From the NCBI GenBank assembly GCA_943788505.1, contig CALSQR010000002.1, positions 1 to 64,000 of the forward strand: a stretch of 64,000 nt of DNA, read 5' to 3'. A program made the translations under genes and the position numbers. Below, in pieces: positions 32,748-50,609 of this stretch. The notes under the pieces are model-generated. The model worked only from the letters and a program-made list of their open reading frames with translations. It was not told the origin of the DNA and ran no database searches. Origin of the DNA: an uncultured bacterium. GTDB lineage: Bacteria; Bacteroidota; Rhodothermia; Rhodothermales; UBA10348. Position 1 is the stretch's first letter; every line of letters begins with the position of its first letter.

Positions 32748-33015
32748 GATGATTCCCTGGTTGGGTTGTTTCGATGGCAAAAATATCGCTTTACCCATAC
32801 GGGGGAATGCCCGATAAAGCGTAGTGTGCATGAGCGGGCTACCTTACGTGATTTGCGGGGGAGATCCCTACAGCCCCTACAAAAACAAGGTCTATTGGGT
32901 TTAAAGACGGATTCTGACGCCCACTCTGAATCAGGGGAAAAAAAGGCGAACAATTCTGTACATGGCCCCCTTGCAATTTTCCTCTGTTTTACTCGGCAAT
33001 TCCCTGATATAAAAT

Positions 33016-33047
33016 GGTGCGCCGGACGAAGCCGTCCGGCGCACCAA
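33016..33047 (-). terminator. Terminator of the amidohydrolase gene
   Basis: TGGTGCGCCGGACG and its complement form a perfect 14-bp stem with an AAGC loop; on the minus strand it is followed by TTTTATAT. It lies in a 343-base space (32748-33090) otherwise free of genes, which should also hold the YceI promoter. Confidence 0.85.
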
Positions 33048-33090
33048 CTCAAAAACCCATCAATAAAAAGATGTCTAGGTTACCGTTCCC

Positions 33091-34461: not shown

Positions 34462-34700
34462 GGTATTGGATTGATTTGGTGGGTGGGACATTCCTCAAAT
34501 ACGAGATGCCCATGACTAATACAAGACTTTTGGAGCCACAGAACAAGTTTCTCCCTGTTTACATTCAGTACTCGACGCCTGATACATCAATGCGAGCGCT
34601 GTGTCGAAACAAGCGGTTTGATAGTCGGCAAAAAGTGGCGTCAGAAATCGAAGACCACATGGGGCATGAACATGTATATTGCGCTAAGTACAGCCCACAC

Positions 34701-35690
34701 ATGAGCGATTTCACTCCCATTCTTGATATCCGCGATCTAGCAATCGACTTCTGTTCAGATGGCTGTTCAGTCCGCGCCGTTCGGGACGTGAGCCTGACCG
34801 TCGCCGCTGGTGAAACACTGGCTCTTGTTGGAGAGTCTGGTTCAGGAAAGTCGGTTACTTGCCTTAGCATCATGAATCTTCTGCCAGAGACAGGATCTGT
34901 GGTTCAAGGAGACATTCTCTTCAATGGCAAGAGTCTGACTACAATGGATGCTGACGAAAGACGTTCACTTCGGGGGTCCTCCATTGGGATGATTTTCCAA
35001 GAGCCCATGACGAGCCTGAATCCTCTTTTCAGGATTGGAGCACAAGTCGCAGAAGCTGTACAGTGCTCTAGCGGTGGTACCAAAGAGTCTGCGACTCGGA
35101 AGGCGGAAGAACTGCTCGAACGCGTGCGAATTCCCGAAGCAAAAAAGCGACTACGAAATTACCCGCATGAATTGTCTGGAGGCATGCGACAGCGTGTCAT
35201 GATAGCTATGGCGCTCGCAGGCAATCCCTCGCTATTGATAGCGGATGAGCCTACAACGGCTCTCGACGTGACAGTGCAAGCGCAGATACTTGACCTTCTT
35301 GGTACGCTGCAGCAGGAATTGAAAATGGCCATGCTGTTTGTAACCCATGATTTAGGTGTGGTTGCTGGCCTAGCCGATCGGGTATGTGTGATGTACAGTG
35401 GCCAGGTTGTTGAAGAAGGCCCGGTCAATCAGCTCTTCGCCAGTCCGCTAATGCCGTATACAAAAGGACTATTGCGAAGTGTGCCGGCTCTTCAGGGCGA
35501 AGGGGCAAGCAGCCGTCTCCAAACAATACCTGGACAAGGGCCTCAGCCTGGAGAAATCCTGCCTGGCTGTCATTTCGCTCCCCGTTGCGAAGCAGCTAAT
35601 TCCGATTGTATCAAAAATCCCGTTGCACTTACTTCAGTTAATGACCGTAGAGTTCGCTGTCTTCGGCACAATGAATGGGGTCAATCATGA
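34701..35690 (+). CDS. dppD: Dipeptide/oligopeptide ABC transporter ATPase (DppD-like)
   Basis: 329 residues from the ATG at 34701; the frame is open upstream, but similarity starts here ('ILDIRDLAIDF'). Walker A 'GESGSGKSV', Q-loop 'IFQEPMTSLNP', signature 'ELSGGMRQRVMIAMAL', Walker B 'LLIADEPTTALD' and switch His 'FVTHDLGV'. The C-terminal oligopeptide-type Cys motif ('GCHFAPRC', 'CIKNP') marks the OppD/DppD family and can bind an Fe-S cluster in homologues. It overlaps the next ATPase by 4 bases. Together they would power the DppB/DppC permeases at 44381-46139. Confidence 0.92.
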   Translation: MSDFTPILDIRDLAIDFCSDGCSVRAVRDVSLTVAAGETLALVGESGSGKSVTCLSIMNLLPETGSVVQGDILFNGKSLTTMDADERRSLRGSSIGMIFQEPMTSLNPLFRIGAQVAEAVQCSSGGTKESATRKAEELLERVRIPEAKKRLRNYPHELSGGMRQRVMIAMALAGNPSLLIADEPTTALDVTVQAQILDLLGTLQQELKMAMLFVTHDLGVVAGLADRVCVMYSGQVVEEGPVNQLFASPLMPYTKGLLRSVPALQGEGASSRLQTIPGQGPQPGEILPGCHFAPRCEAANSDCIKNPVALTSVNDRRVRCLRHNEWGQS

Positions 35691-36649
35691 GTGATTCACT
35701 TCCATTGCTCCAAGCTTCTCGAGTAAGCGTTCGATTTCCGACGGAAAACAGGCAAACCGTCAAAGCTGTAACTGAAGTGTCCATCTCGATCGGGCGTGGA
35801 GAGGTTTTTGGCTTAGTGGGCGAGTCAGGATCGGGCAAAACCACCCTGGGCAAAGCCCTCCTCCGGCTGGTAGCACCGAGCAGCGGTTCAATTCACTTTG
35901 ACGGAGTAGACATCGCCACTATGGGGCCTGATGATCTGCGCCGATTTCGTACTCGAATGCAGGTCATCTTCCAAGATCCGTTCGGAAGTTTGAACCCTCG
36001 AATGACGGTAGAATCCATTCTGACAGAGGCAGCATTACTTGTCGAGTCGAAAGCATCGCTTGCCCCCCGTTTGGCAGAACTGCTAGATCTAGTAGGACTA
36101 CCATCCTCTTCTCTACCTAGGCACCCTCATGAGTTTTCAGGAGGACAGCGGCAGCGTATTTGCATTGCAAGAGCTCTAGCCGTCCGTCCGGAGTTCATCG
36201 TAGCAGATGAACCGGTTTCTGCGCTCGATGTATCTATTCAGGCCCAGATAGTGAATTTGCTTCAGGATCTCCAAAAAGAACTTGGGCTTACAATGTTGTT
36301 TATCGCTCATGATTTGGCCGTCGTACGGCACATCTCCGATAGAATTGGGGTCATGTATTTAGGACGGATGATGGAGACTGGACCGGCCGATGTCATCGTT
36401 TCTGATCCGGCTCACCCATACTCGAAGGCCTTGTTGTCCGCCGTTCCTGTTCCTAATCCCGCAACTCGCGTGACCCGGCAGGTTCTCTCAGGAGACCTCC
36501 CAAGCCCAATCAACCCGCCTTCAGGATGCGTTTTCCGAACACGATGTCCCGTTGCGGTAACAGAATGCTCCCAAAGTGTCCCTGAGCTGCTACCTGTTTC
36601 GGAAAATCAATCAATGGCATGCCTGATGAGACCCACTGGTGAGGCCTGA
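35687..36649 (+). CDS. dppF: Dipeptide/oligopeptide ABC transporter ATPase (DppF-like)
   Basis: 320 residues from the ATG at 35687, overlapping the stop of the preceding ATPase gene (ATGA). Walker A 'GESGSGKTT', Q-loop 'IFQDPFGSLNPRMTV', signature 'EFSGGQRQRICIARAL', Walker B 'FIVADEPVSALD', His in 'FIAHDLAV', and the C-terminal 'GCVFRTRCP' Cys motif. It converges on the DapA-like gene with 44 bases between and no visible terminator. Confidence 0.93.
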   Translation: MSDSLPLLQASRVSVRFPTENRQTVKAVTEVSISIGRGEVFGLVGESGSGKTTLGKALLRLVAPSSGSIHFDGVDIATMGPDDLRRFRTRMQVIFQDPFGSLNPRMTVESILTEAALLVESKASLAPRLAELLDLVGLPSSSLPRHPHEFSGGQRQRICIARALAVRPEFIVADEPVSALDVSIQAQIVNLLQDLQKELGLTMLFIAHDLAVVRHISDRIGVMYLGRMMETGPADVIVSDPAHPYSKALLSAVPVPNPATRVTRQVLSGDLPSPINPPSGCVFRTRCPVAVTECSQSVPELLPVSENQSMACLMRPTGEA

Positions 36650-36693
36650 TCATTACGTATTCCGTGCAACGCTACTCGGCCATTTGCGACACT

Positions 36694-37617
36694 CTAGCGA
36701 GACCATGGCTCCACTTTCTGAACTCCTCGAGCCCCCAAATCAAGACCTACCCTCTTGATTATGCCGGTAAGTTCACGCTCTGTGTACGCATCAATGAGGC
36801 GCCCGGGCGGACGAATATATTGCGTCGAGATAACGCCCCGTTTCTGGTATATAAACTTTCGATACGCCAGTCCGATTTTGGGCTGAAACTCGTATCGAAT
36901 AAGCGGTATGTATCTATCAAATATTGCCGCAGCCAACTCCTCATCCCCCGCACGGAACGCATTGTAGATGCCAACAAGTACCTCAGGAAAGGCGAATCCA
37001 GTCATAATTCCGTTCGCACCGCGTTGCAATTCCTCCAAGAAGTATTCTCCTCCAAGCCCGCCAAAAATGCCAAAATCTGACGCAGCTTCTTTACGGATCG
37101 CAGTGAGTTTGTCCAGCACAGGAAGCTCTTCGAGCTTGATATACTGCACGCCGGGGATCTCGTGCGACATCCTAACAATCAGGCTGGCCGATAAAATCGT
37201 CCCAAATGATTCGGGGAAATCATGGATAATAACTGGAATATCCACGGCATCAGCCACTCCTGCGTAGTGCTGGAACAGAGGTTCATCTGCCTGAATGCCG
37301 ATTGGAGCAACGAATACTGCAGAAGCACCCAATTCTTGCGCTTCGCGAGCTTGCTCAATCGCACCGGCCGTTCCGAAAGCACGTACACCCACCCAGGTCG
37401 GAATATGCCCACCTGTCTGTTCGACAACCGTTCTCACGACAAGCTTTCGTTCAGACTCAGCCATCTTGTGCGCTTCTCCCATAAAGCCGAGAATCGAAAC
37501 GCCATGGACACCGACTTCCATTTCGAAATCGATCAATCGACGCATACTTGCCTCGTCAACAGCGCCAGTATCCGTAAAAGGGGTTGGAAGAATAGGAAGG
37601 ACTCCCTGGAAGTTCAT
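36694..37617 (-). CDS. DapA/NanA superfamily aldolase or lyase
   Basis: 307 residues, TIM barrel. 'GVLPILPTPFTDTGAVDEASMRRLIDF' is the family start, the substrate loop is 'ILGFMGEAHKM' (GTTGE in true DapA), and the Schiff-base lysine is in 'QYIKLEELP'. The Tyr of DapA's catalytic triad ('YNVP') is replaced in 'IIHDFPE', so this is not dihydrodipicolinate synthase but a related lyase acting on a keto acid. The last gene of the minus-strand cluster beginning at 48481; it would process a carbon skeleton released upstream (inference). Confidence 0.85.
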   Translation of the reverse strand: MNFQGVLPILPTPFTDTGAVDEASMRRLIDFEMEVGVHGVSILGFMGEAHKMAESERKLVVRTVVEQTGGHIPTWVGVRAFGTAGAIEQAREAQELGASAVFVAPIGIQADEPLFQHYAGVADAVDIPVIIHDFPESFGTILSASLIVRMSHEIPGVQYIKLEELPVLDKLTAIRKEAASDFGIFGGLGGEYFLEELQRGANGIMTGFAFPEVLVGIYNAFRAGDEELAAAIFDRYIPLIRYEFQPKIGLAYRKFIYQKRGVISTQYIRPPGRLIDAYTERELTGIIKRVGLDLGARGVQKVEPWSR

Positions 37618-37667
37618 GGTGTGCTTTGATTTACTAGTTTCACTGTGATGAAATATACCCTAAAGGC

Positions 37668-39029
37668 TCACGTCGGACGAACAAATTGTCCTGCACCCGC
37701 AGTTGCGGAGACTACTCCCTCAGAATACACGGAAAGACCTCTTACCCATGTAGACTCGACCCGACCAGAAACGGTCATGCCCACATATGGGCTCGCGCCT
37801 ACCGCATAGTGCAAGGCTTCGTCGTCTACTATCCACGTCGCATCCGGATTGAATACAACGAAGTCTGCATCAGCTCCCTCTTGCAAACGCCCCTTCTGGC
37901 TAAAACCAAAAACATCAGCTGGACCGGAACAGACTAATTCAAGGAACCTGGAGAGGGAAAGACGTCCAGTAGCTACTCCCGCGCTATACAGAAGCGCCCC
38001 GAGAGTTTCTACGCCAGGAATGCCAGCGTAGGCATCAAAAATGTCAGAGGTCTCTTTGCGAAAAAGCGGATATGGAGAGTGGTCAGAGGTCACAATATCG
38101 ATCCGACCATCAATCAGGCGCTCCCAAAGCCCATCGACATCCTGCTGCGTTCTAAGTGGCGGATTACATTTCATTCGCCCTCCGTGTTCAGCTAGCGCCT
38201 CTTGAGAAAGGAGTAAGTATTGTAGACAAGTTTCTCCCGTGGTTTTGACTCCCTGAGAGCGATTCCAATTTATGAGATCGAAGGTTCGAGGAATCGTTCC
38301 GTGCACCATGTGAAGATGCGCGCCTGTCCAGTAGGCGAACTCCAATAGTCGCCCCGCAGCTTCCGCCTCCGCAACCGGGGGGCGACTTAAGGCATGGTCA
38401 ATTGGGGCGATTCGTCCAGTGGAGCGGAATCTGGCTGACTCGGCGAAGATGATTTCCTGGTTCTCCTGATGGGCTGCAACTGGTCTTCCAGTCCGAGCAA
38501 TCTCGCGAAATGCATCTACAAATCGATCATCGGAAATTCGAGGAAACCTGATTGGATCTACCTCGATAGTGGACACCTTGAAACCGGCAGCCCCACCATT
38601 GGCCAACAGCGCTATCTGGTCTAATGGTCCAGAAGCAGGAAATGTGACATACAGTCCAACATCAATGACCGCCTCCTTCGATATGTCTCTTATTTTTGTT
38701 TCAAGTCGTTCGAGGGTGTTGACGGGACGAGCGGGCTTATCAAAAGGCATATCGATCAACGTAGTCGTACCTCCTGCCGCTGCCGCCGTTGTCGTCGCCG
38801 TGATGCCTTCATCCACACAGGATCGGCAATGCACGTGGGCATCAACAAATCCAGGAAGTATGAGCTTTTCACCAGCATTGATTTCCTTCCGCCCAAAAAT
38901 GGGTGTTTTTGAAATCATCGCAATTTTCCCTGCCCGGATTCCCATCCATCGATGGGGAGGTTGATCTGCCCCCGCAATAGCCAGCCGCCCATACACGACC
39001 AAGTCGTACGTCGAATCACTAGTCATCAT
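37668..39029 (-). CDS. Dihydroorotase/allantoinase/hydantoinase-like cyclic amidohydrolase
   Basis: 453 residues, TIM barrel with complete binuclear metal site: 'GFVDAHVHCRS' (HxH), carboxylated Lys in 'GAAGFKVST', His in 'VAAHQENQE', His in 'HLHMVHGTI' and Asp in 'IVTSDHSPY'. These residues define the cyclic-amide hydrolases that open hydantoin, dihydropyrimidine, allantoin or dihydroorotate rings. 'AGGTTTLIDMPF' is closest to allantoinase and hydantoinase. Neighbours lack other pyrimidine or purine genes, so the substrate is a transported cyclic amide (inference). Confidence 0.88.
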   Translation of the reverse strand: MMTSDSTYDLVVYGRLAIAGADQPPHRWMGIRAGKIAMISKTPIFGRKEINAGEKLILPGFVDAHVHCRSCVDEGITATTTAAAAGGTTTLIDMPFDKPARPVNTLERLETKIRDISKEAVIDVGLYVTFPASGPLDQIALLANGGAAGFKVSTIEVDPIRFPRISDDRFVDAFREIARTGRPVAAHQENQEIIFAESARFRSTGRIAPIDHALSRPPVAEAEAAGRLLEFAYWTGAHLHMVHGTIPRTFDLINWNRSQGVKTTGETCLQYLLLSQEALAEHGGRMKCNPPLRTQQDVDGLWERLIDGRIDIVTSDHSPYPLFRKETSDIFDAYAGIPGVETLGALLYSAGVATGRLSLSRFLELVCSGPADVFGFSQKGRLQEGADADFVVFNPDATWIVDDEALHYAVGASPYVGMTVSGRVESTWVRGLSVYSEGVVSATAGAGQFVRPT

Positions 39030-39061
39030 AATTTTCTTTTCATCGTGAGCATGTATTGCAC

Positions 39062-39772
39062 TTAATCGATGGAATCTGTGCTAGTAAGCACTTTTTCCTC
39101 CAACTCGTCCCACTCTTGGATGATTGCTCGGGCAAAATCAGTGGCGAGGTATCCCAGATCATATATAGGCGTGGGAAGGGCCTCGCGAACCCGATTAAGT
39201 ATGCTACGTGAGTATCCTACGTAATCGAGTACAAACGCGTTAGCATCCTGACCTGCGGCCAATGAAATAAGCCATTGATCTGCTGGACTCTTTATCGGAC
39301 GAGCTTGCATCGAGCGTACAGAAACCTCAAATCCTGCATTCTGCCACTTTCTCTTTGCTGGATCGACTTGCTCATCAAAAGGGACAACAACCATGAGACG
39401 TTCGTATCCCTTACTGATGAAAACATCACATGCGTGCTCAAATGGTCGTATTAACGCCCCTTCACTTTTAAGGGTCGGAAATTCTCCAGCGCATAGAACT
39501 ATATGCAACTGCACCTTTTCTTCGTTCTCATCAATATTGGCTTGCAAAAGAGGAGCTAGAAAGGCTGCATCAACTTCTACTCGCGTGCCATCTGAGAGTC
39601 GCGTTTCAAGGGGAAACCCAGATGTCGAACACGGAGGTATTTCGGTTAGGGAAAGACCGTTCAAAGCTCCTGTGACGACGATATCAGGAACGCCGAGCGC
39701 AGAAACCAGGAATGGTGTCAAATCAGGACGCGGGGTCTGGCCAATGGTATGAAGTGCAACTGAAACAGACAT
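39062..39772 (-). CDS. AroM family protein
   Basis: 236 residues from the ATG at 39772, sharing one base with the stop of the upstream gene; a longer start at 39808 would sit inside that gene. 'ALHTIGQTPRPDLTPFL' is the AroM signature; 'LHIVLCAGEFP' and 'VVPFDEQ' follow. AroM is a small family of unknown function whose fold resembles Asp/Glu and hydantoin racemases (as I remember). In a cluster with a hydantoinase-like enzyme, a racemase role is attractive but untested. Confidence 0.8.
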   Translation of the reverse strand: MSVSVALHTIGQTPRPDLTPFLVSALGVPDIVVTGALNGLSLTEIPPCSTSGFPLETRLSDGTRVEVDAAFLAPLLQANIDENEEKVQLHIVLCAGEFPTLKSEGALIRPFEHACDVFISKGYERLMVVVPFDEQVDPAKRKWQNAGFEVSVRSMQARPIKSPADQWLISLAAGQDANAFVLDYVGYSRSILNRVREALPTPIYDLGYLATDFARAIIQEWDELEEKVLTSTDSID

Positions 39773-41145
39773 CAGAATAACATGAGACCTCCTGTGCCCG
39801 GATCCCATTCATCAAGGACTGGACCAAGCGCCGTGAGACGAACTGGGTTGTACAAGAACAGCCACGGCGCATTTTTGCTCAATCGAGTATAGGCCGAACG
39901 ATAGAGAGTCTTTCTTGCAGAAAGATTGGGCGTCCCGCGGCCGCGGTCTACCAAGGCATCGAATTCAGTGTCGCAATACCCCATCCACCATGGGCCCGCA
40001 AACCCTGAATGGAATTTTTCTCGGTAGATCCTATAAGTACTAGCCGGGCTGGAGTCGAAGCAAGCCATATCGCCGATATGTCCATCGCGAATCCTTGTTG
40101 CATACCCCGGACGATCGCTATCCATCCGGATACGAGCGGAAAGCCCAATAGCCGCCAAATACTCAACAATACGCTCTGCCAAGGCTGGGGCTTCATCCGG
40201 GAGTACGGCCGGAATATCGATTAGCACTTCATCTGGCTGGACGGCACATTGTTGCAACTCTTTCCTCGCAGCCGCTGGATCGTATGGCCATGCCATGACC
40301 GAACGATCATATCCCAAGTGCCTGCTTGTGAGGGGACCAGCGAGGGGGTCGGCGGCGCCATTCATTACGTCTTTAATCAGCGTATCAACATCCACTGCCA
40401 TATTGATGGCCTTGCGTAGATGTAGATCTTGCATTTTAGCTGACTGCAGATTGAACATGAATGTGGCACATACAGATGTGCTACTGCGAACGATCCTTAC
40501 ATCTTCTGTATTCGCGTCCGCCACGGCAATCTTTGTAGCAGCATCGACGTCGCTTGACTGGACTCGTCCTAGACGCGACGATGGGTCTGGATCAGCGATC
40601 CATTCAATTCGCAGATCATCCGATGACAGTACAACGAGAGCATCGTCCATGCTTTCAATCCGGAAACGTCCAGTACCGATCAGAGCCTGTGGCAATGATT
40701 CGACAGACGATGCAGAGAGAATTGGGATTTCCGAGAGTAGGTCAAGCAGATCTGCCATCGGTTCAGGCGTTCTCAGCCTCACGTTTCCCTCTGAATCCGT
40801 ATCAATGACCGACTCAGCCAAATAACCGCGGATCACGCCTCTTGTACCCAATTCTCCGGGCAAGTCTTCGTCGCGCATCCTAGTCAATGAGAACACTACA
40901 TCTTCGGGAAGAAGCTTCTTTCCATTGTGGAAAGTAACATCGTCTCGAATACGAAACGTCCATTGCGTCGCGTCCTCTGATAACGTCCATGAGGATGCAA
41001 GAGCCGGCTGAAACGTTCCATCCTCCCTTACCCGCATGAGCGGATCAACTACATTTCCTAGGATCGACAGTCGTTCGGCATTATCACTCGTGATATGAGG
41101 ATCAGATATCCGGACATGCTCCTGTGCGATGCGAAGCGTTCTCAT
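39772..41145 (-). CDS. SBP_5-type solute-binding protein without a signal peptide
   Basis: 457 residues with the peptide/nickel-binding (SBP_bac_5) fold: 'LGNVVDPLMRVREDGTFQPALASSWTLSEDATQWTFRIRDDVTFHNGKKL' in order, 'VFSLTRMRD', 'FMFNLQSA', 'LHLRKAINMAVDVDTLI' and 'YDPAAARKEL'. It starts directly in the fold ('MRTLRIAQEHVRISDPH'), with no hydrophobic leader. The start ATG overlaps the DUF6282 stop (ATGA), so no earlier start is natural. It is therefore probably cytoplasmic, perhaps a ligand sensor or chaperone. It is shorter (457) than usual family members (about 500-540). Contrast the lipoprotein member at 46150-47670. Confidence 0.82.
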   Translation of the reverse strand: MRTLRIAQEHVRISDPHITSDNAERLSILGNVVDPLMRVREDGTFQPALASSWTLSEDATQWTFRIRDDVTFHNGKKLLPEDVVFSLTRMRDEDLPGELGTRGVIRGYLAESVIDTDSEGNVRLRTPEPMADLLDLLSEIPILSASSVESLPQALIGTGRFRIESMDDALVVLSSDDLRIEWIADPDPSSRLGRVQSSDVDAATKIAVADANTEDVRIVRSSTSVCATFMFNLQSAKMQDLHLRKAINMAVDVDTLIKDVMNGAADPLAGPLTSRHLGYDRSVMAWPYDPAAARKELQQCAVQPDEVLIDIPAVLPDEAPALAERIVEYLAAIGLSARIRMDSDRPGYATRIRDGHIGDMACFDSSPASTYRIYREKFHSGFAGPWWMGYCDTEFDALVDRGRGTPNLSARKTLYRSAYTRLSKNAPWLFLYNPVRLTALGPVLDEWDPGTGGLMLF

Positions 41146-42206
41146 GCCGTCAAAGCCGTTTCAACGGTGTCCTGTTCTGAAAGTGGCTCAAGTCCCAGCA
41201 GTCGTTCAGGATTGGTCTTGATCATCGTCCGGATGTCGTCGGCGGGTATTCCCAGATCCAACATGCATGCCACAAACTCCCTAAATCCTTCCACGGGGGT
41301 CGGCAGTGTATAAACCCCGAAATCTGTAGCCAAAATGCATTGCTCCGGCCCTAATTCCCTTATCTGCTCCGAGACTTTTTTAACACCACCATCTGGAGCG
41401 ACATCCATGCCCTCGTCAATTGACATGTACTCCCGCTCTACATAATAATGTGTTTTTGGAATTGGAGTTGTATGGGTATATGCGGCCAAGGTGTATTCGA
41501 TAAAGGCTCCTTTCGAAGCCATCCACTTGAGTTCATCCATTGTCGCAATCTTGGTGACAGACGAAGCGATCAATACTTTCTCTATACCATATTCTTCAGC
41601 CAACTCTACAAGCCGAAGTGCCTCGGGCACTGAAATATGTCCTGTGTTCAAATACACATGCGGGTGCTCGGCAATGAGTCGGAGAATCTCATCCAATTCA
41701 GGTGAAACGTCGCCTTCCACTGGTATGCGGATACAGCGATCCAATTCCTCCGTTTTGAACTGCGGATACAATTCGCTCAATGGGACGAATTTCCCATCCA
41801 CTATGTGTCCCTCCCTGGCGGCCTGGAAATACGTCGAATGAGCTCCGAAGCTTATGTATTTTGCTCCCGTTCCATAGAATAAGGCCGTTTTGACGGCTCT
41901 TGGATTCATACCCCCATACACGGTGTTCATGATTAGACCGCCGAAGGTCTCGAACGGACCGGGTTGGTCTCTCAGTACCCTGTTCACGATCCAAGATGTC
42001 CCGTTGGACATCTCAAAGACATCCATGTAGACAATAGCTCGCATTCCTGCCTCCCTGGCCTGCAGAGCGGCCTCCACAGGGTCGACACGGCGCGGGCTAG
42101 AAAAAATATGTGGACCTGCATGAACGTGGATGTCTATCGCACCCTTTAATAGTTCTTGCGAGAGCTCGAAAGAACGACCTGGCGGAAGAAGATGACTGGA
42201 TTGCAT
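41142..42206 (-). CDS. DUF6282-like amidohydrolase-superfamily protein
   Basis: 354 residues. 'GAIDIHVHAGPH' carries an HxH metal motif, then 'MRAIVYMDVFEMS', 'FGGLIMNTVYGG', 'HVYLNTGHISVPEALRL' (third His), 'GIEKVLIASSVTK' and 'QCILATDFGVYTLP' (Asp). This order matches DUF6282, a group of metal hydrolases of unknown specificity found beside transporters. It is coupled by a 4-base overlap to the next gene downstream. Confidence 0.82.
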   Translation of the reverse strand: MQSSHLLPPGRSFELSQELLKGAIDIHVHAGPHIFSSPRRVDPVEAALQAREAGMRAIVYMDVFEMSNGTSWIVNRVLRDQPGPFETFGGLIMNTVYGGMNPRAVKTALFYGTGAKYISFGAHSTYFQAAREGHIVDGKFVPLSELYPQFKTEELDRCIRIPVEGDVSPELDEILRLIAEHPHVYLNTGHISVPEALRLVELAEEYGIEKVLIASSVTKIATMDELKWMASKGAFIEYTLAAYTHTTPIPKTHYYVEREYMSIDEGMDVAPDGGVKKVSEQIRELGPEQCILATDFGVYTLPTPVEGFREFVACMLDLGIPADDIRTMIKTNPERLLGLEPLSEQDTVETALTA

Positions 42207-42298
42207 TCTTTATAACTTGATTGAATACGTCGATGAAGAACAAGATGGCAGAAATAGACGAGAGGCATTGAAGTAAGCAGCCGGCGACTATTTGAGAG

Positions 42299-43207
42299 CT
42301 ACAGTTGGCCGAGCCAGATCAAAAAACCATCCTTTTTGACAGGCATTCCGATATTCATATTCATGACTTTCGCGTCTTCAGGAGCTGTAACCTGTTGCAG
42401 CACATCACCAAAATAGTCCCTCACCACGCCGAGGTCTGCTCCTTTAGGCACGTCTTGTCCAACAGTGACCGTAGGAAAATAGATACCTTCCTGGTCCGCT
42501 GTCAGCCACCATCTGTCGCCTATGACGACCGGTTCTGGATAATCGATTGCTGGGCCTTCGAGGAATCCGAGCTCTTTCAAGACGTTAACGATGCCGCCAT
42601 ACATGATGGAGTCATCCCTATCGCCTATTTGGCCAACCTCCGGTGTTATCTCGGGGATACCGAGTTTGTCACACAATCCTTTTTTGGGCCATAGCCACCA
42701 AGCCGGACGAGCGCCTGTTGGGTCCGGTGGCGGCTCTCCTCGGTACGTTGAAAGCGATACGATACCTACTCCGAATGCGCGAGCCATGCGCATTGCTTGA
42801 GCCTCAGCCACCTCGTTGCCAATCAACCGTGAAATGACATATGGATGCATCAGCTCGGTAAATTCCCCACCGTGACAGTTGATGATGTACTGACTGCCGG
42901 TCGCGGCCTCCAGCATCATATCCGCAATTTCAGGATGAGTCGGAGCGAACTGTATCCAGTTCATGAGAGACTCTTCGTGCGTAGCCATGGAAATGACAAT
43001 TGTCCCTGCCACATCTTCCGGATCAGTCTCTCGAAAGAGACGCATTGCAGCCTCTATCCCAGCATATTCCGTCCCGTGCTGACCGCCAAATATGGTGATT
43101 TGCTCGCCGGGATTGACGCCGTGGATGACACCAATAGGCATACGGCGCTCGCCGCCATCCGTGGTTGTACGACGTAGAAAATAGGTCTTTTTTGTGCCTG
43201 CATTCAT
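42299..43207 (-). CDS. Succinylglutamate desuccinylase/aspartoacylase-like deacylase
   Basis: 302 residues, M14-type zinc hydrolase. Zinc ligands: His and Glu in 'FGGQHGTEYAGIEAA', His in 'IINCHGGEFTE'; catalytic Glu in 'ITPEVGQ'. The C-terminal part 'YPEPVVIGDRWWLTADQEGIYFPTV' and 'VPKGADLGVVRDYFGDVLQQV' is the usual beta-barrel extension. It would remove an acyl group from an amino acid or similar amide. It belongs to the same operon as the transporter permeases. A second, distinct member is at 62168-63142. Confidence 0.87.
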   Translation of the reverse strand: MNAGTKKTYFLRRTTTDGGERRMPIGVIHGVNPGEQITIFGGQHGTEYAGIEAAMRLFRETDPEDVAGTIVISMATHEESLMNWIQFAPTHPEIADMMLEAATGSQYIINCHGGEFTELMHPYVISRLIGNEVAEAQAMRMARAFGVGIVSLSTYRGEPPPDPTGARPAWWLWPKKGLCDKLGIPEITPEVGQIGDRDDSIMYGGIVNVLKELGFLEGPAIDYPEPVVIGDRWWLTADQEGIYFPTVTVGQDVPKGADLGVVRDYFGDVLQQVTAPEDAKVMNMNIGMPVKKDGFLIWLGQL

Positions 43208-43219
43208 GATTTAAAATCC

Positions 43220-44290
43220 TCAGACAAGGTTCTTGATGAGATCGACAAAGACTCGTTGACCATCCTTGCATCGATACAATCCAATGTCGGGATCAGTCAA
43301 GTCCCCTTCTGGGGTGAAGGAGATCTCGCCGAGAGCACCCGAATAGGTTCCGAAATTTTGCATCTCTCTAAGGACATCGCTCCGGGTTACCTGAGGAGCT
43401 CTTCGGATACATTCTAAAATCATATTGGCACAATCATAGGCTTCCGGAGCATATTGCGGAGCATCAAGCATCTTGGGATATCGCTCAGCAAAATCAACCA
43501 AGAACTGACGAGCCGATTGCTTGACCATCATGTCGATTCCAGCAAGCGAATGGTAGGGCGCTTCCTTGTCCCTGCTCGGCACTTCAAGAAACGCGTACGG
43601 CTTTAGGGCATCACTACCAAGGAATACGGCATCGACACCGCGTTCCCGCAAAATGTGAGTGATTATATGGGTCTGATTCCAGTAGACAGCAAAGTAGACT
43701 AGATCTGGTTTAGCCTCCACGACAGCATCGATTAGATCATCGTAATTGAGTCCCCTTTCCTTTTCGGTGTAGCCGAAGTGCAAGACAGGCGGTACGCCAA
43801 GTCGAGTGATTTCATCAGAAAATATCTTAGAAATCGGCTCCCCCCATGCAGAATCCTCATTGAGAATCGCAATCCGCTTTCCGCCGATGTAGTTCACAGC
43901 TGCCTGGCCTAATGCTCGGCCTTGAACTTCGTCGTTGGCTACGGTCCTGAAAAAATGTGTGTATCCCTTGTTACTGAGCAAAGGACTTGAAGCCTCTGAA
44001 CTCATTTGAAGAATACCGGCATCGGCATACACATCTTGCGAAATAACCGCCATGGCACTGTTCGTTGGGCCTAGTACTGCGATTGCATCTTTACGAGCCA
44101 CGAAATCAGCTGCTGCTTTTCTTGAAATGTCTCGGTCTTTACCGTTGACGATCACCTCGAGTTTGACGTCAACTGGGAGATTTCCTGCAGCATTTGCTTG
44201 ATCGATCGCCATCTCCGCGGCACACCAACCAGCTACGGAATAAACGTCATCATTGGACAATTCAAATCCGATTGTTACGGAGTCAGGCAT
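43220..44290 (-). CDS. LivK-like (Peripla_BP_6) ligand-binding protein without a signal peptide
   Basis: 356 residues. Type I periplasmic-binding-protein fold with 'VTIGFELSNDDVYSVAGWCAAEMAIDQANAAG', 'KDAIAVLGPTNSAMAVISQDVYADAGI', 'NEDSAWGEPISKIF' and 'YAPEAYDCANMILECI'. The protein starts inside the first strand (MPDSVTIGF), and TAA lies in frame only nine codons upstream, so no leader can be added. Related LivK-type proteins work as cytoplasmic sensors (AmiC of Pseudomonas); this one may do the same. No LivH/M/F/G genes are present. Last gene after the permeases, 90 bases downstream of dppC. Confidence 0.85.
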   Translation of the reverse strand: MPDSVTIGFELSNDDVYSVAGWCAAEMAIDQANAAGNLPVDVKLEVIVNGKDRDISRKAAADFVARKDAIAVLGPTNSAMAVISQDVYADAGILQMSSEASSPLLSNKGYTHFFRTVANDEVQGRALGQAAVNYIGGKRIAILNEDSAWGEPISKIFSDEITRLGVPPVLHFGYTEKERGLNYDDLIDAVVEAKPDLVYFAVYWNQTHIITHILRERGVDAVFLGSDALKPYAFLEVPSRDKEAPYHSLAGIDMMVKQSARQFLVDFAERYPKMLDAPQYAPEAYDCANMILECIRRAPQVTRSDVLREMQNFGTYSGALGEISFTPEGDLTDPDIGLYRCKDGQRVFVDLIKNLV

Positions 44291-44380
44291 AGTGGATGCG
44301 GGTTTAACGGGGAAAAATTATGGGGAAATCAAAGTAGTTGAATAATATCCGGATAACCACCGGATTTACTGATAGTACGT

Positions 44381-45247
44381 CTAATCTCCAATACGCGGAT
44401 CATAGACATCTCTAAGCCAATCCCCAAGCATGTTGACAGAGTAGACGGAAAGCATTAGAGCAATGCCTGGTAGCGTCGAAACCCACCAAGCGATTCGAAG
44501 ATAATTCCTGCCCTCACCTAGCATACCACCCCAGGTGGGGGTACTTGGCGGGACGCCGACACCTAGAAAACTCAAGGATGCCTCATTTATAATGTTTGTC
44601 GCCAAGGCAAAACTGGCTACGACAATCAATGGGTTGATAATGTTTGGAACTACATGGCGCCACATTATCGTCCAGTCACGCAGTCCTAGAGCCTCAGCAG
44701 CTGTTATGTATTCCTGGTTACAGACCTGAAGCGTTTGCCCTCTTGCAACACGGCAGAATGGTGCCCATGTGGCTATGCTCAGAACAATAACGACGTTCAT
44801 CATACTGGGACCCACTAAGGCCATAATGGCCACAGCAAGCAAAATGGAAGGAAAAGCCAGCTGAATGTCCACAAGTCGCATGATTACTGTTTCCACCCAC
44901 CCCCGGAAATAGCCGGCTATCAAACCCAGCACCGAACCGAATATGCCTCCAAGAAGCACGGTGGCTACCCCTACAAACAAAGAAACACGAGCACCATGAA
45001 TGATCCGGCTTAAGACATCTCGACCCACGTTATCCGTGCCCAAGACATGATCACTCGATCCACCATCCATCCAAGAAGGAGGCGTCAGACGAGTTCTAAT
45101 ATCGATCGCACCGGGATCCACTGGTGAAACCCACGGAGCAAATAGAGCAAGCAAGAGCATCAAGCCCAGAATTGAGACTGATACCAATGCCACCGGAGAT
45201 CTTACTAAACGTCTTCGCAGATCATTCATGACGGATTCTTGGGTCAA
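44381..45247 (-). CDS. dppC: Dipeptide-type ABC transporter permease (DppC-like)
   Basis: 288 residues, about six TM helices. The N-terminal cytoplasmic helix and TM1 'LVSVSILGLMLLLALFAPWV' are followed by 'GTDNVGRDVLSRIIHGARVSLFVG', typical of DppC, and the EAA loop 'AAEALGLRDWTIMWRHVVPN'. 'EASLSFLGVGVPP' ends the conserved core. It overlaps dppB by 26 bases. Confidence 0.93.
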   Translation of the reverse strand: MTQESVMNDLRRRLVRSPVALVSVSILGLMLLLALFAPWVSPVDPGAIDIRTRLTPPSWMDGGSSDHVLGTDNVGRDVLSRIIHGARVSLFVGVATVLLGGIFGSVLGLIAGYFRGWVETVIMRLVDIQLAFPSILLAVAIMALVGPSMMNVVIVLSIATWAPFCRVARGQTLQVCNQEYITAAEALGLRDWTIMWRHVVPNIINPLIVVASFALATNIINEASLSFLGVGVPPSTPTWGGMLGEGRNYLRIAWWVSTLPGIALMLSVYSVNMLGDWLRDVYDPRIGD

Positions 45248-46139
45248 TGAACGAGTAGCTTAGATCCACAACTAAGTTGACTAGGACAAATACTAACGCT
45301 CCAAAGGTAATCACGCCCTGAACGAGGGGAAGGTCTCGGGCCTGAATCGCCTGAAGGGTCAGCCGACCTATTCCAGGCCATGCAAATACCGTTTCCGTGA
45401 TCAAGGCACCTCCAAGCAGGCCACCAATCTCAAGTCCAAGCAACGTGATCACAGGAATCAGTGCGTTACGAAGGGCGTGAACGTAATAGATCCGCCAATT
45501 GGGAAGCCCCTTTGCTCGGGCCGTCCGGATGTAGTCCTGCCCAAGAACATCAAGCATGGAGGAACGCACTAAACGGGCGATGCGAGCAGTAGAAAACGTA
45601 GCAAGAGTGATGGCTGGAAGAAGTAGATGCAGGAAGGTGCCTCGTCCAGAAACAGGAAGCCATCTCAACCATACTCCGAAGACTAATATCAGCATGATTC
45701 CTAGCCAAAAAGTCGGTACGGATTGAGCAAACAAGGCACCGCTCATCGCGACTCGGTCTGCTAGGGAATTACGCTTAACGGCCGATAGTACCCCGATCGG
45801 GATCGAAATGAAGACGATCAAAAAGAGGGCAGCTGCCGTCAGCTCAAGGGTAGCCGGAAACCGCTGCAGGATGAGATCCATAACTGGGATTTGCTGCCGT
45901 ACCGATACACCAAAATCTCCTTGAGGCAGCCCAGCTAAAAAATCACCGTATTGAACTAGAAGAGGCCGGTCGTATCCCATCGCCTCCCGGAATGAGGCGA
46001 TTTGCTCACTGGTCCAGTGGTCCCCGATCATTAAAGTTGCAGGATCACCTGAGAGAAAGGTCAATGCAAACGCAATCGTCGCCACCGCCCACAAAATGAA
46101 GACGGCCATGAGTAAACGCTTGGCGACGTATTTCAACAT
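45222..46139 (-). CDS. dppB: Dipeptide-type ABC transporter permease (DppB-like)
   Basis: 305 residues, six TM helices. 'KYVAKRLLMAVFILWAVATIAFALTFLSGDPA' is the DppB N terminus, 'GLPQGDFGVSVRQQIPV' the periplasmic loop, and 'YIRTARAKGLPNWRIYYVHALRNALIPVI' (in parts) the EAA loop that docks on the ATPases. It begins 11 bases after the binding protein gene stops, so binding protein, DppB and DppC are one unit. Confidence 0.94.
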   Translation of the reverse strand: MLKYVAKRLLMAVFILWAVATIAFALTFLSGDPATLMIGDHWTSEQIASFREAMGYDRPLLVQYGDFLAGLPQGDFGVSVRQQIPVMDLILQRFPATLELTAAALFLIVFISIPIGVLSAVKRNSLADRVAMSGALFAQSVPTFWLGIMLILVFGVWLRWLPVSGRGTFLHLLLPAITLATFSTARIARLVRSSMLDVLGQDYIRTARAKGLPNWRIYYVHALRNALIPVITLLGLEIGGLLGGALITETVFAWPGIGRLTLQAIQARDLPLVQGVITFGALVFVLVNLVVDLSYSFIDPRIRHE

Positions 46140-46149
46140 GGTGACATCG

Positions 46150-47670
46150 TCAGAGAGTCAGAGATACGTCCCACAAATGAATAATTTCGTCTGGTCTCGG
46201 CTGCCAGTCTATCTGGTCTGAAACGCCATAAACATCTGGTTGAATGTGCAGAAATATCCACGGTGCCTCTTCGTGAACGATCTCCTGCATACGATACCCG
46301 ATTTCTTGGCGGCGATCTGGATCAAGTGCAGCCTGCAGTTCATCCCAGAGCTCCTCGTACTCATCGTTTTCCCAGCGATAGAAGTTTGATGGGCTGGTGA
46401 TTGTTAAATCCGCCGCTTCGGTCAGCAACTCGAATTCCCCTCCAGACCCCTGCATGAATAGGCCTGGCAGATCGTACGAAAGTAACTTGCCTCTGTAATT
46501 CCCCCATTCGTACGTGCGTACACCTTTCTCGAGCGTGACACCAACGTCAGCTAACTGAGACTCGATCGTTTGAGCGAGTTCGAAATCCTGGATCCATTTC
46601 CCAAGAGGCGTATCCAGAGATGACAACTCGAAGCCATTGGGGTAGCCCGCTTCTTCCAACAGCTTACGAGCCTTTGCGGGATCATAATTGTACGCTTCTA
46701 AGGTTGGATGATTGTACGGAGGGTTGAACATGTAGGACATTCTGTCTACCTGTCCGCTGAAAAGACCCTCAGAGATCGCATCAAAATCAATAGCATAGTT
46801 AAGCGCCTGTCGAACCCGTTTGTCCTTCAAAGGCTCTGGACCGCCTGATGTAGTGATCCCAATCATGACGCGCCTACCCCCTGAAATTCTTGCAACATGA
46901 ACTCCGGGCGTATCATCTAGCAAAGCCGCCTGGTCAAAGGGAAGGTCCGTCACAAGGTGTACACCTCCTGTCTCTAATTCTGCTATTCGGGTAGATACTT
47001 CAGGAATGACACGCCAGATGACACGAGCAGCTTTAGGCGCGCTTCCCCAATAATCTGGGTTCGCAGCCAAGGCGACATGACTGTCACGAATACGTTCACT
47101 GACAGTGTAGGGACCCGTTCCAACTGGATTTTCCGCCCGATCGGCATCTGAGGCATCTGTGTAAAATCCTGGATCGATCATCCACATTTGGGAGAGATAA
47201 AAAGGCAAAAGGGCCTTGGGGCTACTCGTTGAAATATTTACCCTCAACGAATCTAGGATATCTACTCTCGTGATGTCGGCGCTCGGGATGGCAACGGATG
47301 CTCCTCCAACGGTCCGCCCGGCAGCGTTTCTTTCATAATAGGATTCAATGGAGAATTTCACTGTTTCAGCGTTAAAAATCGCTCCATTATGAAACCGAAC
47401 GCCCTCCCGCAATTGAAATGTCCACGTAGTATCACCTTCGAGTCGCTCCCAAGAAGTTGCCAGAAGGGGCTCAACCTCCATGTCCTTATTAAAGAAAGTC
47501 AGACTCTGAAAAAGGTGGTCACCAAACGCGACCTCCACCCGTGAGAACATTCCAAACGGATCCATGGTCGAAATATCCGTTGAGTTGGCAACCGTAAGAT
47601 CTCCTTGAGAGGAACACCCTCCGATCATCAAAGCCAAAGAAAACGTTAGTGCTCGGAATAAATTGCGCAT
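46150..47670 (-). CDS. SBP_5 peptide-type solute-binding lipoprotein
   Basis: 506 residues from the ATG at 47670, which gives a lipoprotein signal with lipobox IGGC (Cys 19); an open frame extends upstream but has no such signal. 'DLTVANSTDISTMDPFGMFSRVE', 'PLLATSWERLEGDTTWTFQLREGVRFHNGA', 'VGTGPYTVSERI', 'DKRVRQALNYAIDFDAI' and 'YDPAKARKLLEEAGYPNGFEL' are all standard. This is the exported receptor for the DppBC/DppDF transporter of the cluster. The start is one base after the SDR stop. Confidence 0.93.
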   Translation of the reverse strand: MRNLFRALTFSLALMIGGCSSQGDLTVANSTDISTMDPFGMFSRVEVAFGDHLFQSLTFFNKDMEVEPLLATSWERLEGDTTWTFQLREGVRFHNGAIFNAETVKFSIESYYERNAAGRTVGGASVAIPSADITRVDILDSLRVNISTSSPKALLPFYLSQMWMIDPGFYTDASDADRAENPVGTGPYTVSERIRDSHVALAANPDYWGSAPKAARVIWRVIPEVSTRIAELETGGVHLVTDLPFDQAALLDDTPGVHVARISGGRRVMIGITTSGGPEPLKDKRVRQALNYAIDFDAISEGLFSGQVDRMSYMFNPPYNHPTLEAYNYDPAKARKLLEEAGYPNGFELSSLDTPLGKWIQDFELAQTIESQLADVGVTLEKGVRTYEWGNYRGKLLSYDLPGLFMQGSGGEFELLTEAADLTITSPSNFYRWENDEYEELWDELQAALDPDRRQEIGYRMQEIVHEEAPWIFLHIQPDVYGVSDQIDWQPRPDEIIHLWDVSLTL

Positions 47671-47671
47671 T

Positions 47672-48481
47672 CTACCACACCGTTTTGCTTTTACCGCCAT
47701 CGACCATGAGGGTCGCTCCGGTAACATATCGAGCCGCATCTGACAGCAAAAAAGCCCCAGCTTCACCAAACTCTTCTATCGTCCCATAGCGGCCCATAGG
47801 AATCATAGCCTTTCGTTTCTCCTGCCAGTCCTCCAAAGGAACGCCGAGCTGATCTGACTTAAAGATGTCATTTGAGCGAACTCGATCCGTATCGATCTGA
47901 CCCGGCACCAGGTTATTAATCCGGATTTCTTCTGCCGCCAAGTCTGAAGAAAGGCTCTTTACGAGGCTCACTACGCCGGAGCGGAAAACATTTGATAGCA
48001 ACAGGATGTCGATGGGTTCTTTGATCGACGAGGAGGTAATCGTAACAATCGAACCACTACCCTGGGCACGCATGATCGGAAGAACGCCGCGAATCATCCG
48101 AACAGCACTCATCAGGGTGAGTTCGAACCCGTTTTGCCAATCTTCGTCTGAAAATTTATCAAATTTGCCTGCAGGGGGGCCACCAGCATTCACTACGAGG
48201 CCATCGATCCGACCGAAATGAGTATGAGCATCCTCTATCCACTTGGCAATGCTGTCTGGACTCGTAGCATCCATAACGTAGCCTTGAGCTTCTGAACCGG
48301 TAGAGTCTCTCAAAGCCACGGCCGCCTCATCTATTGTCTCCCTTGTTCGGCTTGCCAGTGCCACCTTGCCACCTTTACGGGCAACTGCCTGGGCAATTCC
48401 GAATCCGAGTCCGACCGACGAGGCCGCAACCAAGACCACTTTGCCTTCAAATGCTGCGTTTTCCAGTGTTCTATCCTCCAT
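47672..48481 (-). CDS. SDR-family oxidoreductase lacking the usual YxxxK motif
   Basis: 269 residues, Rossmann fold. Cofactor loop 'VLVAASSVGLGFGIAQAVARKGG', 'GLVVNAGGPP', the 'IVTITSSS' strand with Ser, and the C-terminal 'VTGATLMVDGG'. The catalytic position reads 'LLLSNVFRSGVVSLVKSL': the Tyr and Lys of YxxxK are Ser and Arg. A subgroup of SDR proteins (often called 3-oxoacyl-ACP reductase-like) shares this. It may use another acid or act on a non-standard substrate. First gene of the minus-strand operon, starting 164 bases from the truncated aldo/keto reductase. Confidence 0.9.
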   Translation of the reverse strand: MEDRTLENAAFEGKVVLVAASSVGLGFGIAQAVARKGGKVALASRTRETIDEAAVALRDSTGSEAQGYVMDATSPDSIAKWIEDAHTHFGRIDGLVVNAGGPPAGKFDKFSDEDWQNGFELTLMSAVRMIRGVLPIMRAQGSGSIVTITSSSIKEPIDILLLSNVFRSGVVSLVKSLSSDLAAEEIRINNLVPGQIDTDRVRSNDIFKSDQLGVPLEDWQEKRKAMIPMGRYGTIEEFGEAGAFLLSDAARYVTGATLMVDGGKSKTVW

Positions 48482-48645
48482 AATATTGCAAGACTCCAGT
48501 ATCCGTAGAAATACCTAAGGAGGCAAGACATTCGTGCATTTTGTCATCTTGGACCCCCATTGTCCTCGATGACCAGGAGTGGTCGAGTCAAAATCTCCAT
48601 AGAACTGGATTACTTTCTCGAACAAAAGAAGATTACTCAGGCACT

Positions 48646-49335
48646 TCAGTCCCTCGAAGTAAGAATGGCTTCGATATGAGCAAGCTCCCCATCGGTCAGC
48701 GGATCAGAGTCCATGACGGCGAGTGCATCGTCGATGTGGGCCGTGCGGCTCGCTCCAATCAACGCAGAGGTCACACTATTGAAACGCAGCACCCATTGAA
48801 CGGCCATCCGCGCCAGTGTTTGGCCACGATCCCCCGCCAGCTCGTTTAGCTGCTTAATTTGATTTAGGCGATGCCCTGTCAGCTCATCCGGCTGGAGAAA
48901 TCCATGCACTTTGCCCGCACGGGAGTCAGCAGGAATACCATTCAAATATTTATTGGTAAGCATTCCTTGCGCTAGGGGCGAAAACGGGATACACCCGATC
49001 CCCTCTTCTTCCAAGACTTCCAATAGCTCAGGTTCAATCCATCGCTCAAACATCGAATACTTCGGTTGATGGATCAGGCACGGTGTCCCCATCTCCTTAA
49101 GAAGTCGCGCAGCCTCGCGCGTTTCTACTGGACCATAGCTGGAAATACCCACGTAAAGCGACTTTCCGCTGTGCACGAGGTGCGCAAGAGCGCCCATGGT
49201 CTCTTCCAATGGTGTGTTGGGATCGTAGCGGTGGGAATAGAAAATGTCGACGTACTCCAACCCCATCCGCTTCAGGCTCTGATCGGCGCTCGCGATGATG
49301 TGTTTCCTTGAACCCCACTCACCGTAAGGACCCGA
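48646..49335 (-). pseudogene. Aldo/keto reductase lacking its N-terminal third (YghZ-like)
   Basis: About 230 residues matching the C-terminal two-thirds of the YghZ/GpR group: 'GPYGEWGSRKHIIAS', 'DQSLKRMGLEYVDIFYSHR', 'YVGISSYGP', 'LIHQPKYSMFERW', 'GCIPFSPLAQGMLTNKYLNGIP' and 'ALIGASR'. The frame is open only to 49338, where TAA occurs just before GPYG. The roughly 108 N-terminal residues of the family, including the catalytic Asp-Tyr, are missing, and the upstream DNA has no AKR similarity. The NADPH-binding C terminus is intact. A start at 49266 would give only 206 residues. Probably inactive. Confidence 0.85.
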
Positions 49336-49613
49336 CCTTTAGAGTCGTGGGCCAGCCAGAGATCATCAGTGAACTTGCAGGCCTTGCGGACTTCCATGTA
49401 GATGCAGAAGGTCGGATTATAGCCCTGATAAACAATTCTTACGTTGGAGACCAACAAAGGAATGCACCCACCGATGTGACCATCTTCACCCATTTCGATC
49501 AGCGGGCTCATGAAATGGCGCCATGGGCCGAGAATTGACCCTGAACAAGCCGGTGATTGGTTTGCGCATGATGTAAATTCAGTCGCATCCCTTCGAACAA
49601 TTCGCTTTTCTCC
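49336..49613. other. Unassigned segment abutting the truncated reductase
   Basis: This 278-base stretch replaces the missing AKR N terminus. Plus-strand open codons to the TGA at 49536 read 'GLADFHVDAEGRIIALINNSY', which could be the end of another gene, but I recognise no family, and a minus-strand frame is open too. The last part is the leader of the DNRLRE gene. Confidence 0.3.
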
Positions 49614-50609
49614 GTGACCCACTTTCTTCCGACCATCCGGTTTTCCACCCTCTTCATCCTAGTTGTGCTCGTGGCCTTCGGCGCGCCGGCTGTATCAGCT
49701 CAGCACGTTGCCGAAATCTCTGCATCGAAAGACAACACCTTGTTTGAAGACAATGACGGACTTCTTAGCAATGGGCAAGGCATCTATATTTTTGCCGGAA
49801 TGACTGCTCGGAATGAAAAGCGTCGCGCGTTGATCGCCTTCGATATTGCAAGTGCACTCCCTCCTGACGCTCTGGTTGATAGCGTGCATTTTCAGATATT
49901 TATGGACAAGTCACTGGCGGGCGATGTACCTGTCTCTCTGCATCCAATGAGCGTTGCCTGGGGTGAAGGGGCCTCCGACGCGCCAGCAAATGAAGGGGGT
50001 GGAGTCGTGGCAGCAGACGGCGATGCTACCTGGATCCACTCATTCAAACCATCCATGACGTGGACCACTCCCGGCGGTGATTTTGACACAGATGCTAGCG
50101 CCACGACTGCAATTGGTGGCAGTGGAACCCATATTTGGTATTCGACCTCTGCAATGGTAGCTGACGTGTCCTCCTGGCTCTCGGATAGCTCTGCAAATTT
50201 CGGTTGGATGATCGTTGGAGATGAATCACAACCTGTCACGGCTAAGAGGTTTGGAAGTCGCCATGCTGCAGATGCAGCTCATCAGCCCGTCTTGCGCGTG
50301 TTTTATACGTCTAACTCAACGGCCTCTGAGAAAACAGAGCTTCCAACGGCATTTCGATTTGATTCTGCATGGCCCAACCCGTTTGCAACATCGACAACTG
50401 TCGGGTTTACAGTGGAACGCCCCGGTCGGTTTGTTCTAGATGTCATAGACATGACGGGGAGAATCGTCCATTCGACTACATATCAAGCTCTACAGCCGGG
50501 CTCTCAACAGGTCTCAATTCCAGGCTCCTCGCTTGCTGCAGGACTGTTTATTGTCAAAATATCTGGTCAGTCTGATGCCGTGATGGGCAAGCTTGTGCAC
50601 TTGCGTTAG
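49614..50609 (+). CDS. Secreted DNRLRE-domain protein with T9SS sorting tail
   Basis: 331 residues from a GTG. Signal peptide 1-29 ('STLFILVVLVAFGAPAVSAQ'). Residues 35-230 are a DNRLRE-type beta-sandwich: 'SASKDNTLFEDNDGLLSNGQGIYIFAG', 'RRALIAFDIASALPPDALVDSVHFQIF' and 'GWMIVGDESQPVTAKRFGSRHA'. The C-terminal 75 residues ('FRFDSAWPNPFATSTTVGFTVERPGRFVLDVIDMTGR' in parts, ending 'AGLFIVKISG...GKLVHLR') are a Por secretion type A sorting domain. It is therefore exported by the type IX system and surface attached. This is strong evidence for the phylum. Confidence 0.9.
   Translation: MTHFLPTIRFSTLFILVVLVAFGAPAVSAQHVAEISASKDNTLFEDNDGLLSNGQGIYIFAGMTARNEKRRALIAFDIASALPPDALVDSVHFQIFMDKSLAGDVPVSLHPMSVAWGEGASDAPANEGGGVVAADGDATWIHSFKPSMTWTTPGGDFDTDASATTAIGGSGTHIWYSTSAMVADVSSWLSDSSANFGWMIVGDESQPVTAKRFGSRHAADAAHQPVLRVFYTSNSTASEKTELPTAFRFDSAWPNPFATSTTVGFTVERPGRFVLDVIDMTGRIVHSTTYQALQPGSQQVSIPGSSLAAGLFIVKISGQSDAVMGKLVHLR

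Follow-up and report, generated by a model that had tools for sequence, protein, structure and literature searches.

A leaderless LivK-like binding protein encoded in an Opp transporter and hydantoinase operon of Rhodothermales

Examination of a 64,000-nucleotide stretch of DNA from an uncultured Rhodothermales bacterium (hereafter the window) revealed an ATG-started open reading frame of 356 codons (43220..44290, minus strand) coding for a 356-amino acid LivK-like binding protein of the Peripla_BP_6 family, in which a complete type I fold starts at the mature N terminus without any leader. A cytoplasmic location of this protein is well supported by its sequence. We consider it fairly probable that it is a LivK paralogue whose leader has been permanently lost and that, together with OppA2, a second leaderless binding protein from the same operon, it acts as an intracellular ligand-binding subunit of a module combining Opp import with hydantoinase/amidohydrolase catabolism.

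The reuse of a leaderless binding protein inside the cell is of a kind already known from AmiC and NasS, relatives of binding proteins that have kept their ligand sites and control transcription via a partner (PMC3795266). In the present case, absence of the leader has become fixed, in one lineage for the LivK-type protein and across two phyla for OppA2, and no antiterminator partner accompanies it. No description of two leaderless folds in an Opp-hydantoinase operon lacking an antiterminator was found in the literature searched, and a search on cytoplasmic binding proteins returned nothing relevant. Binding proteins without a leader are readily mistaken in annotation for ordinary receptors of transporters, a hazard that the authors of the NasS study point out (PMC3795266); should both proteins influence uptake or metabolism from inside the cell, a group of binding proteins now labelled as receptors would have a different job.

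The LivK-like protein, its relatives and its predicted ligand site

Residues 1-40 of the LivK-like protein contain neither lysine nor arginine and no hydrophobic core, which rules out both a Sec and a Tat leader. The in-frame codons 5' of the start read TAA TTT TTC CCC GTT AAA CCC GCA TCC ACT ATG. The sequence-only reading had noted both the lack of a signal peptide and a TAA nine codons upstream that prevents extension, and both observations hold: the stop lies nine sense codons ahead of the ATG in the same frame, and no basic or hydrophobic N terminus is found. The 90 nt that separate OppC from the LivK-like gene contain, in the two remaining frames, no leader that could be joined and no leader remnant. 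The match to PF13458 (Pfam, Peripla_BP_6; 6.7e-33, 115 bits, cut-off 31.7) is in register with the start of the profile, residue 22 falling on profile position 22. Structure prediction, which had been proposed as a check, yielded an AlphaFold model with a complete fold from the mature N terminus: beta strand 1 spans residues 4-11, and in the structural alignment residue 3 pairs with residue 1 of mature LIVBP (2liv 1-344), which makes the protein a complete binding protein from which precisely the leader is missing.

The leaderless start is found in 10 genomes, always directly 3' of OppC: the source genome, eight loci from other assemblies (L004-L011) and one further genome of the family (G401). 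Since the same start recurs in these loci, it is not the sequencing error of one assembly. A leader, the finding of which had been named as a refutation, is absent from all relatives. The relatives show 59-85% identity to the LivK-like protein of the window, and the spacers 5' of the gene are dissimilar in sequence to one another. Nonsynonymous divergence (pN) is 0.10-0.25 with synonymous sites saturated (pS ~0.8-0.9), and the gene evolves more slowly than its operon partners OppA1 (pN 0.12-0.27), OppA2 (0.25-0.37) and AroM (0.30-0.45). By this sequence comparison the gene is under strong purifying selection; a low evolutionary rate alone fails to separate a regulator from a carrier.

The nearest solved proteins by sequence are a leucine-bound LivK homologue from Brucella, Atu2422 and LBP. 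Confidence of the AlphaFold model is middling (pLDDT 72.8, with residues 228-278 poor), and the reading of the pocket therefore rests on sequence alignment. The residues contacting the alpha-amino and alpha-carboxyl groups in LIVBP and LBP, which we take to be S79, T102, Y150, Y202 and E226, align to S78, S101, W149, Y203 and D227 of the LivK-like protein, and these five are invariant in 9/9 LivK-like sequences. According to this alignment, the predicted ligand site is kept and is of amino-acid type, and the protein probably binds an amino-acid-like product. The invariant E99 occupies the position of Gly100 in LBP (presumably Ala100 in LIVBP) and may favour a ligand bearing an extra donor group.

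The LivJ/LivK-type binders of branched-chain amino acids and GABA (2liv, 2lbp, Atu2422 3ip5, Brucella 4n0q) share with the LivK-like protein the fold over its full length, several of these structures matching the model with Z scores of 27-30, as well as the alpha-amino-acid contact residues. Apart from the residue at position 99, they differ in being exported and in serving LivHMFG.

The operon and its second leaderless binding protein

The gene order SDR-OppA1-OppB-OppC-LivK-AstE-DUF6282-OppA2-AroM-hydantoinase-DapA is conserved, and every locus that extends far enough shows convergent OppF and OppD genes at the end of the operon. In the window, the operon lies on the minus strand and opens with an SDR dehydrogenase gene (47672..48481; PF13561, 3.2e-52), which is kept in L009 and G401. 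It is followed by OppA1 (46150..47769; SBP_bac_5, 2.1e-75), an exported lipoprotein receptor having a basic n-region, a hydrophobic stretch and a lipobox-like GGC; its true start is likely the ATG of MRNLFRAL...LMIGGC, at about residue 34 of the ORF. The permease OppB (45222..46139) is recognised by its operon position and by 77-94% identity to OppB of related loci, and OppC (44381..45247) by its BPD_transp_1 and OppC_N domains. The ATPases OppD and OppF are encoded on the plus strand (34476..36649). Judging by its sequence features, OppA1 is evidently the receptor of OppBCDF.

Starting 12 nt past the LivK-like gene is the gene for an AstE/AspA-like metallo-deacylase (42299..43207; PF24827, 1.1e-6) carrying HGTE and CHGG motifs. 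The next gene encodes a DUF6282 protein of amidohydrolase fold (41142..42206; PF19799, 6.1e-43) with an HVH motif, 83-87% identical to its relatives; a literature search for DUF6282 found no paper. Beyond OppA2 lie an AroM-like protein (39062..39808; PF07302, 7.6e-29), which we assume to fall in the hydantoin/Asp-Glu racemase superfamily, a hydantoinase-like cyclic amidohydrolase (37668..39029) and a DapA-family lyase or aldolase (36694..37617; PF00701, 5e-37). The best NCBIfam match of the hydantoinase-like protein is ErtD (hydantoin-5-propionate amidohydrolase), at 473 bits under a cut-off of 650.

Several variations and neighbouring genes were observed. In one Rhodothermales genome, a gene for an S-adenosylhomocysteine hydrolase (Pfam AdoHcyase; L011 7873-9192, plus strand) stands between OppA2 and AroM and hints at a connection of the pathway with methyl or adenosyl groups. 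The operon of G401 carries an inserted gene for a peptidase-looking lipoprotein between AroM and the hydantoinase (L026 11767-13536, minus strand). In Shinella (L013), a 48% identical DUF6282 gene has as neighbours genes at 13900-14799 and 13075-13743 (both plus strand), whose predicted products resemble, in sequence, a homocysteine S-methyltransferase and an Asp/Glu or hydantoin racemase, respectively. Upstream of the operon in the window, an aldo-keto reductase gene (48646-49266, minus strand) is short of about 120 N-terminal residues; no intact upstream frame was found for it, and it is probably a truncated remnant. A second AstE/DoeB-like deacylase is encoded outside the operon (62168-63142, minus strand; NCBIfam TIGR02994, 2.7e-29, below the cut-off), beside a gene resembling that of a sodium-solute symporter.

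The operon had also been said to hold two leaderless binding proteins of different folds, and the analysis bears this out: the second, OppA2 (39772..41145, minus strand), is a leaderless OppA-like protein of the SBP_bac_5 family (Pfam, 2.4e-45). Its best matches on plasmids, from Microvirga, Labrenzia, Sulfitobacter, Ensifer, Terrarubrum, Alloyangia and Allorhizobium, likewise begin at the mature N terminus; the start of the Rhizobium sequence (L048) among the alphaproteobacterial loci (L041-L049) is ambiguous. In the tree, one branch (support 100/99) separates all leaderless OppA2-type sequences from all exported ones. On this evidence the leaderless OppA2 clade is common to Rhodothermota/Bacteroidota and Alphaproteobacteria, and as one branch spans phyla, leader loss in the family is old. 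Existing annotations, where there are any, present the leaderless OppA2-type proteins as plain ABC transporter substrate-binding proteins.

The alphaproteobacterial Opp operons resemble that of the window in having leaderless OppA2 orthologues beside an exported SBP1: an SBP1 gene is present in the operon at 6/6 annotated loci, with a leader in all four N termini that were read. L041-L043 and L046 also contain amidohydrolase, Asp/Glu racemase, DapA-family and SDR-type genes or matches. They differ in that L041-L049 have no LivK-like gene and that L041-L043 carry GntR and VOC genes, which are missing from the LivK-like operon. The presence of GntR in several leaderless-OppA2 operons makes a role of OppA2 as transcription sensor less needed. 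In L044 (6526-8685, plus strand) and L047 (7780-9549, plus strand), leaderless SBP2 genes of another subgroup stand beside genes for VOC and EgtB-like (SUMF1) proteins, the latter replacing the amidohydrolases, which suggests a related but different substrate.

Proposed role and alternative readings

In the role that we favour, exported OppA1 would catch a peptide-like or cyclic-amide compound outside the cell and OppBCDF would import it, after which the hydantoinase, AstE-like, DUF6282, AroM and DapA-like enzymes would degrade it, yielding an amino acid. On that amino acid, or on a close N-acyl or N-carbamoyl precursor, the LivK-like protein would close in the cytosol; OppA2 would bind the substrate and the LivK-like protein the product, both in the cytoplasm, and their ligands would then name the substrate and product of the hydantoinase/DUF6282/AroM pathway. 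In its closed or open form, the LivK-like protein would act by binding directly to other proteins, the likeliest targets being the transporter or enzymes of the operon, and the output could be control of metabolism, feedback on uptake or the hand-over or carriage of ligand, rather than a signal through an ANTAR antiterminator. A more speculative extension, to which we give little credence, is that two unrelated binding folds moved independently into the cytoplasm as a paired gauge of substrate (OppA2) and product (LivK-like protein), tuning an ABC importer and its enzymes without a transcription regulator. Control of this type would be new for uptake systems.

The foremost alternative is that the LivK-like protein is a ligand sensor controlling transcription in the manner of AmiC and NasS, through a non-ANTAR partner encoded elsewhere in the genome. 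Action as a sensor is possible on sequence grounds, and the AmiC/NasS precedent (PMC3795266) favours it, as the protein is likewise leaderless with a kept ligand site. The sequence-only reading had proposed an AmiC-like candidate sensor; a cytoplasmic placement and a retained ligand site are well supported, but membership of the AmiC family and an ANTAR partner are not. As a yardstick we used a Paraburkholderia plasmid locus (L038) in which the AmiC gene adjoins genes for AmiR/ANTAR and for an amidase, the latter as read from its sequence. Against PF13433 (the AmiC-type family, Peripla_BP_5), the LivK-like protein scores 20.7 bits, below the cut-off of 27, compared with 427 for the AmiC of L038, and BLAST aligns the two proteins in patchy pieces at 24%. 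AmiC is not among the closest relatives. Its structure (1qo0_B) does appear in the structural match list with a Z score of 26.5, amid many other receptors, so that structure alone neither makes nor breaks an AmiC reading.

That no AmiR/ANTAR partner is visible near the gene had been remarked before, and the observation extends to the whole source genome (2.75 Mb, 97% complete), where the ANTAR domain (PF03861) is absent. Three control plasmids were positive in the same search (1e-13 to 3e-21), their matches being AmiR and NasT-like genes with the leaderless partners adjacent. Weak ANTAR matches in five Bacteroidota genomes cover only 31-35 of 54 positions and were distrusted. AmiR_N (PF21332) is also absent from the source genome, in a search that had no positive control. 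At the loci examined, the operon has no conserved regulator gene, whatever its type, as a neighbour; an Rfam search of 33000-50500 returned no known RNA switch or leader, and promoter and terminator patterns at the operon are near chance. With the PF13433 score below cut-off, no ANTAR and no conserved regulator, this is not an AmiC-AmiR system, and membership of the AmiC family was rejected. AmiC resembles the LivK-like protein in lacking a leader, in overall fold and in sitting in a catabolic operon; it differs in family and in its AmiR partner. AmiC binds short aliphatic amides; the contact residues of the LivK-like protein appear to be of amino-acid type. NasS, of the NasS-NasT pair, is likewise a transporter binding protein that has lost its leader and kept its ligand residues (PMC3795266), but it has another fold (NMT1_2) and acts via NasT, which is absent here along with any ANTAR protein. 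In the control plasmids, genuine AmiC and NasS genes adjoin those of their partners AmiR and NasT; a transcription sensor with a distant partner seems rather unlikely.

The LivK-like gene stands among enzyme genes, close to the AstE-like one, and the binding fold could have been recruited as a pathway enzyme or as a subunit of one. MqnA and Thi5 are examples of type II binding folds that evolved into enzymes. No comparable case among type I folds is known to us, and the amino-acid-binding residues are retained rather than replaced; we therefore regard this conversion as improbable.

It is quite improbable that the protein is exported after all, by a non-classical route or with a leader-bearing partner, and feeds OppBC or another permease. 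The position of its gene directly after OppC would fit such a receptor, and its LivK-type relatives from Proteobacteria are usually exported (among the matches L050-L052, the leaderless start occurs in 0/3 and two have clear leaders). Against this, a leader is found in 0/10 genomes, OppA1 already serves as exported receptor, and to our knowledge no type I binding protein serves an Opp permease. Of the features of a LivK/LivJ receptor (HAAT family), the Peripla_BP_6 domain and the contact residues are present, while the leader and LivHM are lacking. A LivHMFG set that could use the protein had been named as a refutation of an intracellular role, and no LivHM permease (PF02653) scores above the cut-off in the source genome, where the best match is one fragment (E 9.8e-4, 18.5 bits, cut-off 26.8); 12/14 control genomes exceed the cut-off. 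PF02653 above cut-off is also missing from 7/8 carriers of the LivK-like gene. Use by a Liv transporter is thus unlikely, and the candidate role of receptor for such a transporter was rejected on the lack of LivHM above cut-off.

An artefact, in which a sequencing or annotation frameshift removed the leader or the gene is decaying, could not be dismissed from one genome by itself but is refuted by the relatives and has a negligible probability: the identical start in separate assemblies and other frames free of any leader remnant rule out a frameshift or wrong start codon, and pN against pS rules out decay.

Distribution of the module

In a phylum-wide search of 394 sampled genomes, the LivK-like gene was found in the source genome only. 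Phyla beyond Bacteroidota/Rhodothermota were covered through plasmids only, and as far as searched, the leaderless LivK is confined to the Bacteroidota/Rhodothermota version of the operon. Within the family, the gene is present in 8/27 genomes and OppA2 in exactly those eight; the module is accessory, yet inherited as one unit.
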